Below are positions 37,501-62,292 of a DNA stretch of 64,000 nt, piece after piece (position 1 is the first letter of the stretch; each line of letters opens with the position of its first letter). The stretch is from Desulfovibrio sp. MES5 (lineage in GTDB: Bacteria; Desulfobacterota; Desulfovibrionia; Desulfovibrionales; Desulfovibrionaceae): assembly GCF_002237645.1 (NCBI RefSeq), contig NZ_MJUZ01000008.1:1-64000 (forward strand), read 5' to 3'. A model generated the notes under the pieces. It did no database searches, was not told the origin of the DNA, and saw only the letters and a program-made list of their open reading frames with translations. Position numbers and translations under genes: made by a program.

Positions 37501-37664
37501 TTACGCCCCAGACGCGGGAGAGTTTTCTCGCGCGCTGGGGCGGGATCGTGCGTGGGAGCGGCCTACGTAATGCGCTGTTGCACGCGGCTCCCGATCAGAG
37601 CTGGGCCCTGACGCTGAAAATTTTTTCAGAGCACTTTGCCTCTGAAAAAGGATGCATGCTCTAA
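34587..37664 (+). CDS. Multidomain family 2 glycosyltransferase
   Basis: A 1025-aa cytoplasmic protein with three GT-A-like segments. The N-terminal one (about 10-260) is divergent. The central one (about 470-720) is a clear GT2 domain with VVMPVYNPRPDHLRAALDS, DDAS and the metal-binding FLDHDD, followed by GFEGSQDFDL and YHWRVHDGSTS. The C-terminal one (about 735-1000) resembles a third, degenerate GT2 fold. It likely builds a surface polysaccharide or a glycan on flagellin or LPS; acceptors are unknown. There is no SD; a TATAGA at 34575 sits 7 bp before the ATG. The last codons and the stop belong to a family B repeat. Confidence 0.88.
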   Translation: MSSLPSDRPWLTVLLACLPEFSARPALDALIRAGGRGQVVLLLCEEAEREPMTALGREMVRSGDLRAFRCQCPQAGQNLWHVRNAASALVRTPWLLLLSSSVLLQENALPPLRRALETHRDLAGVNPFFLYPAGTGGPPARSDEPLHTSPALPRIAHMGTVVDCLGQQHYLYEGLPLGHTLARRERRFQLAHTAALLLRTSDVAAAGGFNPSLDSLADVDFCLRLGALLHQTAGGGAAGAFGSIPVSLARLGDYFDSWQTCGLWNSLLQRERIEPGVLHPDYAAHVSADGLEYGCTDWLWQGPCPQPGSWVDAGKEPESSGAGEPGTGFPLEAWLRWRWQPQPDTLLGFLHALTPHQRTQAVQMCRDLPVSLPYAHSWYASTARNLLACSHRGAVAPLVHDAQRWLERAEDFRRNHLHAGMRALQAEGVYDSGLDDCPASFDAWVELVEPALQSGQDCTPDAAQFDLLHTGADWPAIAVVMPVYNPRPDHLRAALDSVLAQEYPHWQLCIADDASTKNEIPEILRSYAADDKRLRLVLRGKNGHISRASNSALELVDAPWTGFLDHDDLLTNHALSEVASLVRHKPDLGLMYSDEDKLDSRGVRRTPVFRADFDPWTCFTGHFSVYATKELRAAGGFRTGFEGSQDFDLSLRVIERLAPGRIAHMPRILYHWRVHDGSTSGSLGAKPYVLEATRRALEESVRRRGFKAEAVPTALNNFFVLRHEVDPRMRCSAVLLAADSRPVQAGLWEELEKLAGTLDLEVLCQPLSNDAAEAFRSMPTATFAGARLLPPPEGKENGDWHAACNGAASAASGQVLLFLDARLSPLPGSLPGQLAALALQENVGAVGGTLWRGNRLWHAGLMPDVTGLPFALHRGAHRDLLSSICWGQLLLTRRALAAPEQAMAVRRAVFLEHGGYDIAMGPWAGADLGLRLAAAGMHSLSCPWGQWHVPLQPGKALENVAWAEDVQGRQRITPQTRESFLARWGGIVRGSGLRNALLHAAPDQSWALTLKIFSEHFASEKGCML

Positions 37665-37780
37665 CACTGCACGAGAGCGCAGCGAGCCACAACGTGGCGT
37701 GGATTCTGCCAGAAGCGCATTTTTGGCAGAATGACCATTAAAATGTAAAGCATTTCAAAGTGATTCTGATCTAGAGCGAT
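37655..37780 (+). repeat. Family B hairpin-array element, copy 1
   Basis: CTCTAAC-CTGCACGAGAGCGCAG, GCCAC/GTGGC, ATTCTGCCA...TGGCAGAAT (9 bp) and AAATG/CATTT stem-loops follow one another and end at CTGATCTAGAG. The order and most bases match copy 2 (62061-62213). The innermost pair of the 9-bp stem is A-T here and G-C in copy 2. Confidence 0.8.
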
Positions 37781-51861: not shown

Positions 51862-52218
51862 TGCTTTAAATCCCCCGCTCCAGATCGGAAAAACCCTTAG
51901 ACCCTTTTCGCATTGAGAATATCCATTCTCGCGGTAGCCGTTGCCCGCAGGGCTTGCCTGAACCGTTGGCGAGAACCGCCTTACGGGGCAGGACAGCATC
52001 GCTATGGATGGCGACAGCGATTGTATGGAACAAGCTGTGTCGTTACGCATGCTGTCTTCAAGCGTAGTTTCCTGCGTCACAACGCTTTAAGCCTGCGTCA
52101 CAACGCCTGAATCAATGCTTCCAAGACGCCCGCTTCGGCGCGTAACCGCGCAAATAAATAGCGGTGCTGTCTTTATTGAAAATACCGCACACTTCAATGG
52201 TAACATGCTCTCGACACA
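51862..52218. repeat. Family A left half interrupted by family C material
   Basis: 51862-51901 (gaagacgct...ccgctccagatcggaaaaaccctt) is the left module of family A. The right module (aaaagttttagggggtgggg) resumes only at 52219. Between them lie the TTGAGAATAT..ATTCTC palindrome, inverted module Y (51936-52004), a 22-bp-period duplication of CCTGCGTCACAACGC and module X (52122-52172) of family C. Confidence 0.7.
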
Positions 52219-52241
52219 GCAAAAGTTTTAGGGGGTGGGGC

Positions 52242-52281
52242 GTAGGGGAGGGACCCTTTTGTAAAAGGGTCCCTCCCCCAC
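52242..52281. repeat. Family A hairpin, copy 2
   Basis: GGGGAGGGACCCTTTT and AAAAGGGTCCCTCCCC pair around a GT loop. It lies 25 bp past the stop of the HD-GYP gene and, like copy 1, could close a minus-strand operon. Confidence 0.85.
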
Positions 52282-52305
52282 AGAGCAGTTCAACGCGACA
52301 TTTTC

Positions 52306-59884: not shown

Positions 59885-60255
59885 GGTGGGGAGGAAATGC
59901 TCTGTGGGGGAGGGACCCTTTTGAAAAAGGGTCTCCTCCCCCACGCCCCCACCCCCTAAAACTTTTATTGTGTGTTAGAACAATACCAAGGGTTTTCTGA
60001 TTTGGGGCGGGGGTTTCAGAGAAAGCGTCTTCAGGCGTCGCACGGTTCAGGATTGTCCCGCTCCAGCCACAGTACATGTTGTACATGTTGATGCCGTCGT
60101 TTTCAGCTTTCCGGCTGTGCGTCCGCATGATGGCAGTTGGCACAGCCGTTTCGGGTGTCAGCGTCAGGCCGCATGCGTCCGCAATGGGCGTTGGAGTCTG
60201 ACGGGGCGCTTCATCGAAAAAAACAGGTCTATTTTCACTCATTGCTGGTGCTGCC
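59885..60255. other. Gap between polA and the AraC gene, holding an inverted family A element
   Basis: The first 150 bp are an inverted family A element (59885-60035). The rest, up to the AraC start, has only shadow ORFs and no clear promoter. Confidence 0.6.
59904..60029 (-). repeat. Family A element, copy 3 (inverted), hairpin at 59904-59944
   Basis: The reverse complement reads tgaagacgct...gaaacccccgcc...cagaaaacccttgg...aaaagttttagggggtgggggcgtgggggagg, then the hairpin. It is the most complete uninterrupted copy in the window and lies directly after polA. Confidence 0.8.
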
Positions 60256-61954: not shown

Positions 61955-62230
61955 GAAAGACGCTGTTTCTGAAACCCCTGCTCCAGATCAGAAAACCCTT
62001 GGTGCGTCACGTAAATACACCAAGAGTTTTAGGGGGGGGGCGTGGGGGAGGGGGCCCTTTTTTAGGGCATTTAACTTTTTTCAAAGTTAAATGCCCTAAC
62101 GCTGCATGAGAGTGCAGCGCGCCACAACGTGGCGTGGATTCTGCCGTAAATCGCATTTTCGGCAGAATGACAACTTTGAAATGTGAAGCATTTCAAAGTT
62201 AATCTGATCTAAAGAGGGTCCCTCCCCCAC
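61955..62230 (+). repeat. Family A element, copy 4, split by a B element
   Basis: The left module (gaaagacgct...agatcagaaaacccttgg...gagttttagggggg) and the left hairpin arm end at about 62060; the right arm AGAGGGTCCCTCCCCCAC is at 62213-62230. Without the insert the arms would form the same hairpin as copies 1-3. Confidence 0.8.
62061..62213 (+). repeat. Family B hairpin-array element, copy 2 (nested)
   Basis: Five perfect stem-loops in series: TTAGGGCATTTAACTTT (17 bp), CGCTGCA/TGCAGCG (7 bp), CGCCAC/GTGGCG (6 bp), ATTCTGCCG/CGGCAGAAT (9 bp) and AACTTTGAAATG/CATTTCAAAGTT (12 bp). It ends with GATCTAAA, which mirrors TTTAG at the left edge. The last four stems have counterparts in copy 1. 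Confidence 0.85.
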
Positions 62231-62292
62231 AAAGTATTTCTTCCCTCCACAAAAATCTTTCCTCACCATAAACATTTCAAAATAATATCGCC

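Follow-up and report, generated by a model that had tools for sequence, protein, structure and literature searches.

RUP, the repeat unit of pneumococcus, is a simple 107-bp repeat for which mobilisation by IS630-Spn1 has been proposed and whose terminal repeats pair together (PMC2229807, PMC3049150). The Correia or NEMIS elements of Neisseria are MITEs of about 105-155 bp that have inverted repeats and fold in transcripts, and the CIR elements of Caulobacter consist of separate conserved stem-loops (PMC2229807). Insertion sequences of the IS630 family, such as ISY100, transpose by cut and paste and duplicate a TA on insertion (PMC2170065), and the title of Tenzen and Ohtsubo 1991, cited in that paper, gives the IS630 preference as the TA in CTAG.

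We analysed a 64,000-nucleotide stretch of Desulfovibrio sp. MES5 (positions 1 to 64,000 of contig NZ_MJUZ01000008.1; hereafter the window) that holds a 145-bp element, B, at 62065-62209 (+ strand), within the loop of the hairpin of another repeat, A, and with a TA on each side. Like RUP, B is about 100-150 bp long, high in copy number, non-coding and strongly folded, with a TA target and IS630-like ends, but it differs from RUP in its five separate hairpins in a row, its paired changes across species and its nesting in another repeat. B also falls in the size range of the Correia/NEMIS elements and, like them, is a MITE with inverted repeats, whereas they form one main stem-loop from their two ends and each end of B forms or borders a hairpin of its own. 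Correia elements target TA. IS630 and ISY100 share the TA duplication with B, and CTAG is close to B's YTAR target, but these elements are autonomous, about 1 kb long and encode a transposase, which B does not. REP and BIME repeats with RAYT resemble B in being palindromes with a tetranucleotide foot, and the Caulobacter CIR elements in having separate conserved stem-loops; in contrast to both, no Y1 enzyme tracks B, and B has a TA duplication and IS630-like ends. B is best read as a new family of a known kind (an IS630-type MITE, like RUP and Correia), of which the conserved five-hairpin shape is the unusual part. The statement in an earlier note on this DNA that no described family has such a layout therefore holds for the five-hairpin body, within reach of our searches, but not for the mode of mobility. 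In the openly accessible literature, we found no paper on such repeats in Desulfovibrio.

All five consecutive stem-loops that the earlier note had read between the arms of A are present on the + strand. Hairpin 1 (62062-62099) is a perfect 17-bp stem that includes the left terminal repeat, hairpin 2 (62100-62119) has 7 perfect pairs, or 8 with a G-U, hairpin 3 (62120-62134) has 6 pairs, and hairpin 5 (62172-62200) is a perfect 12-bp stem adjoining the right terminal repeat. These four stems agree with the lengths first given (17, 7, 6, 9 and 12 bp, all perfect), but hairpin 4 (62138-62168) is 14 bp long with one mismatch. Folding of the B region gave z-scores of -10.4 on the + strand and -13.2 on the - strand, and none of 200 shuffled sequences was as stable. 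A covariance-model search of the window at Rfam gathering scores returned only two tRNAs and no family matching B, and a terminator scan of the locus yielded one weak match, no more than in shuffles.

The edges of B are set by what is common to its copies and by a TA target fixed at other sites, which place the left TA of the target duplication at 62063-62064 (within T-TA) and the right one at 62210-62211 (within TA-A). Directly inside lies an imperfect terminal inverted repeat of about 18-20 bp, GAGCANNTTNACTTTGA; the first base of B after the duplicated TA is G, and the right terminal repeat spans 62193-62211. The inverted repeat reported earlier as TTTAG...CTAAA thus exists, but it is longer and imperfect. 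The assignment of the whole element draws on own-genome copies, on an empty orthologous site and on a covariance-model match at 62062-62213.

A search of the window's own genome (G000; 3.47 Mb in 52 contigs) found about 40 copies of B at 81-100% identity, among them a decayed second copy in the window, outside any A (37626-37776, + strand). Seven copies have A arms on both sides; the others sit in unrelated flanks. The B-end pattern YTAGAGCANNTTNACYTTGA had 407 matches at no more than 3 mismatches, compared to 18 for a reversed-pattern control, and B is therefore one class of a larger superfamily with common ends, which also includes elements with CGCCCGCTTCGGCG and B copies that have gained additional DNA within or next to hairpin 4.

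Comparison with a sister genome (G017, about 90% nucleotide identity here) revealed the locus with both flanks syntenic and exactly B missing: query positions 4-962 and 1113-1900 are adjacent in G017, and the orthologous A is a complete hairpin with the loop TTTTGCAAAA. Because this A is empty, A is older than B at the locus, which bears out the age order drawn earlier from the nesting. Four further B sites (L017, L010, L185, L191) are filled in one of the two genomes and empty in the other, in both directions, and three (L008, L021, L034) are filled in both. The claim that B is, or was, mobile or copied is thereby upheld, by the polymorphic sites as well as by the many own-genome copies.

Two sites give the target. 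At L013, B is present in both G000 and G017, and the corresponding codon in G021 and G023 is a plain TAG or TAA stop of the gene; at L189, B is present in G017, and G000, G021 and G023 have an empty TTAG or CTAG stop. The target is accordingly YTAR, with TA duplicated on insertion, and a TA stood on both edges of all 20 copies sampled from genome G002. Insertion of the IS701 type generates a 4-bp YTAR duplication. We rejected this for B, as the tetranucleotides on its two sides are frequently unequal (TTAG/CTAA), in keeping with a TA duplicated within YTAR, and empty sites show a single YTAR. At both sites the stop codon was restored as TAG, because B begins with G after the duplicated TA. A copy of B in a TAA or TAG stop thus leaves a TAG stop, which helps explain how many copies are tolerated in a gene-dense genome. 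Stop codons as such do not appear to be targeted: of 36 copies, 11 provide the TAG at which an adjacent open frame stops, but about one third of the YTAR sites in the window are open-frame stops anyway.

Repeat A provides the second half of the nesting history. At this locus its left arm lies at 62042-62061 and its right arm at about 62211/62212 to 62230, both on the + strand; taken as 62042-62061 and 62211-62230, the two 20-nt arms show 80% complementarity, which makes this an imperfect copy of A. The segment just upstream (61957-62041, + strand) travels with the A repeat, has an inverted match to 59985-60031 and belongs to a high-copy repeat in three genomes. The G-rich hairpin occurs intact at 1-71, 52232-52302 and 59894-59964, the three copies noticed at first reading. 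The A repeat as a whole is about 140 bp long and reached at least 40 scored matches in each of G000, G017 and G094, and its stretches in the window include 59894-60031 and 61957-62240. Its stem varies among copies, yet both arms keep matching.

Most A copies lack B, and G017 alone has about 18 A-B composites. A tree of 53 B copies drawn from four genomes placed the 13 A-inserted copies together on one side of a single branch of weak support (53/27), and on this ground B probably entered an A loop once, with the composite then spreading as a unit. A is a separate high-copy repeat that was already present here before B; one A would have gained B in its loop, and the composite may have been copied to many places, this locus included, as the weakly supported tree suggests. 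The chances are about even that a different A-B composite was the source of B at the present locus, through gene conversion or recombination, and that B did not transpose into the local A. All composites fall in one clade, and the orthologous loop in G017 lacks a TA, which makes recombination rather than direct insertion possible; on the other hand, the loop of the direct ancestor may have differed from that of G017, and the composite clade is weakly supported.

Profile searches of the genomes covered IS630 DDE transposases (DDE_3) and Y1 transposases (PF01797). Five genomes of the genus (G002, G016, G022, G025 and G073) hold IS630-family insertion sequences of about 1 kb whose terminal repeats start with TAGAGC or nearly so, resembling the ends of B; those in G022 are TAGAGCGTTTCAACTTTGAAATG and TAGAGCAATTCAACTTTGAAATG. 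NCBIfam and Pfam both identify the proteins of G016 and G022 as IS630 transposases, the G022 copy being split into two frames, and in G073 a B-like element occupies the TA bordering the IS630. B thus combines a TA duplication, ends that match those of autonomous IS630 elements of the same lineage, and short, non-coding copies dispersed at non-orthologous positions, and we consider it very probable that B is a MITE of the IS630 (Tc1/mariner-like) kind, mobilised in trans, with the nesting history proposed. In the mechanism we favor, an IS630-family DDE transposase, supplied in trans by the 1-kb insertion sequences with the same terminal repeats, would bind the ends of B, excise it and insert it into the TA within a YTAR, duplicating that TA. 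Target and ends are observed; cut-and-paste in trans is what we infer from the family.

The evidence points to the DNA ends, and not the hairpins, as what the enzyme recognises. Of the earlier proposal of a non-autonomous element moved by a hairpin-recognising transposase encoded elsewhere, we therefore retain the non-autonomous element, probably moved in trans, and replace hairpin recognition by IS630-type ends and a TA target. A BIME- or REP-like B, moved as single-stranded DNA by a Y1 transposase (of RAYT or IS200/IS605 type) that recognises hairpins and a YTAG foot, would account for palindromes with such a tetranucleotide foot and for two ends in inverted arrangement, and Y1 genes are common in the genus. 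They do not track B, however: G017, G020, G023 and G010 carry B and gave no PF01797 match, the Y1 genes in the genome of the window itself are of an IS200-like type and interrupted by in-frame stop codons (L073 and L090, at G000:C2:46788 and C32:10072), and TA duplication with IS630-matching ends fits a DDE enzyme. We regard mobilisation by Y1 as highly improbable, and disfavour RAYT- or Y1-driven REP or BIME repeats on account of the B-rich genomes that lack Y1 genes.

The 20 B copies sampled from G002, a genome whose IS630 has matching ends, are nearly identical to one another, with a median all-pairs identity of 97.9%, compared to medians of 73.6-93.5% in genomes without an IS630 gene; the samples from G002, G094 and G082 are largely top matches and thus biased upward, so that G002 against G094 and G082 is the fairest contrast. 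What speaks against an IS630 helper is that we detected no IS630 (DDE_3) gene in most B-rich genomes, including the closed G079 and G094, and no DDE_3 match in the window's own genome. Such genomes are most simply explained by a helper that was lost repeatedly, or else an undetected relative may serve as helper. With no detectable IS630 gene in their own genome today, the B copies of the window's genome are probably stranded, their helper having presumably gone.

Of 79 sampled genomes of the genus, 41 contain B according to a covariance model, so that B, as the earlier note had expected if it were mobile, has many further copies both in its own genome and in relatives, and its A hairpins do not always contain it. 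A plain DNA search, which would miss diverged forms, found no B in 24 sampled genomes from other families of the order. Among named genomes, Desulfovibrio sp. MAG STF2_171 was the only B holder matched in a pattern search. The family constitutes a natural experiment, with filled and empty sister sites, a nested composite that probably spread as one piece, and young copies with a candidate helper in some genomes against old copies with none in others.

B-like elements in other species share this layout of five hairpins, but their stems are for the most part different: hairpin 4 is TTCTGCCG..CGGCAGAA in G000, for example, and TTTTGGAA..TTCCAAAA in G010. We aligned 16 copies from seven genomes over 45 predicted pairs, and found pairing kept in 94.6% of cells and changes on both sides in 26 of the 45 pairs. 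The covariation score was 0.423, with all five helices contributing, whereas shuffled controls scored 0.170 and slid controls no more than 0.103; as the copies share ancestry and the structure itself came from this alignment, these are counts and not probabilities. The proposal to align copies for covariation thus brought out paired substitutions in every helix. Within G000, one-sided changes broke a pair more often than they kept it (123 versus 68), paired positions changed at a rate of 0.095 versus 0.164 at unpaired ones, and pair-keeping double changes occurred in 36 cells. Lineages retain the shape and single copies lose it.

The usual view of MITEs is that their ends suffice. In B, the shape persists where stem sequences differ strongly while single copies decay, and selection, or a mutational process, therefore acts on the shape during propagation. 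It is a tentative possibility that the five-hairpin fold itself, as RNA or single-stranded DNA, is needed for the spread or persistence of B, which would make B a DDE-type MITE under selection for the form of its entire body in addition to its ends. Propagating lineages keep the five hairpins in shape, most probably since a terminator-like body that pairs with itself would render copies tolerable or help them propagate, the least certain step of our scheme; individual inserted copies decay.

Two explanations of the shape remain, the other being that pairing is unselected and that hairpin-templated repair or template switching corrects the arms against each other, so that pairs mutate together. 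The matching arms of A despite its varying stem, and the pair-keeping double changes inside G000, speak for such correction, but old single copies build up unrepaired mismatches, so any correction is slow relative to decay. We hold this, too, to be possible but doubtful; it bears on the cause of the shape alone and agrees with B being a MITE.

A B kept by the host primarily as a functional structured RNA or terminator, its spread by transposition being incidental, would explain the paired substitutions across species, the slower change of paired positions in G000 and the many copies at gene ends. No Rfam family matches, however, the excess of pair-breaking changes in G000 indicates that individual loci are not maintained, sister genomes differ in their B sites, and copies lie at stop codons as expected from the availability of YTAR. 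We judge such a role unlikely. The earlier alternative of a structured RNA gene that spread may still hold, but nothing we found requires it.

Several other arrangements accompany B in these genomes. Four own-genome copies (L096, L103, L116, L123) carry an extra insert, about 240-390 bp long and located within hairpin 4 or next to it, that is built of further palindromic modules (GCCGTTGCCCGCAGGGCTTGCCTGAACCGTTGGCGG...). A repeat class with the ends of B but a different body, with CGCCCGCTTCGGCGCG motifs, occurs in the window at 2564-2780 and 51900-52215 and elsewhere as L098, L099, L100, L104 and L118. Tandem B copies that share one TA, the arrangement predicted for insertion of B into the TA at another copy's edge, were seen at G017:C3:91555-91878 and in the own genome on contig C15 (L025 and L029). 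Finally, a site in G017 (L207, on C18) has a solo hairpin that is the reverse complement of hairpin 1, with TA on both sides, where the orthologous G000 site (L020, on C52) has a full B; hairpin 1 may move independently.
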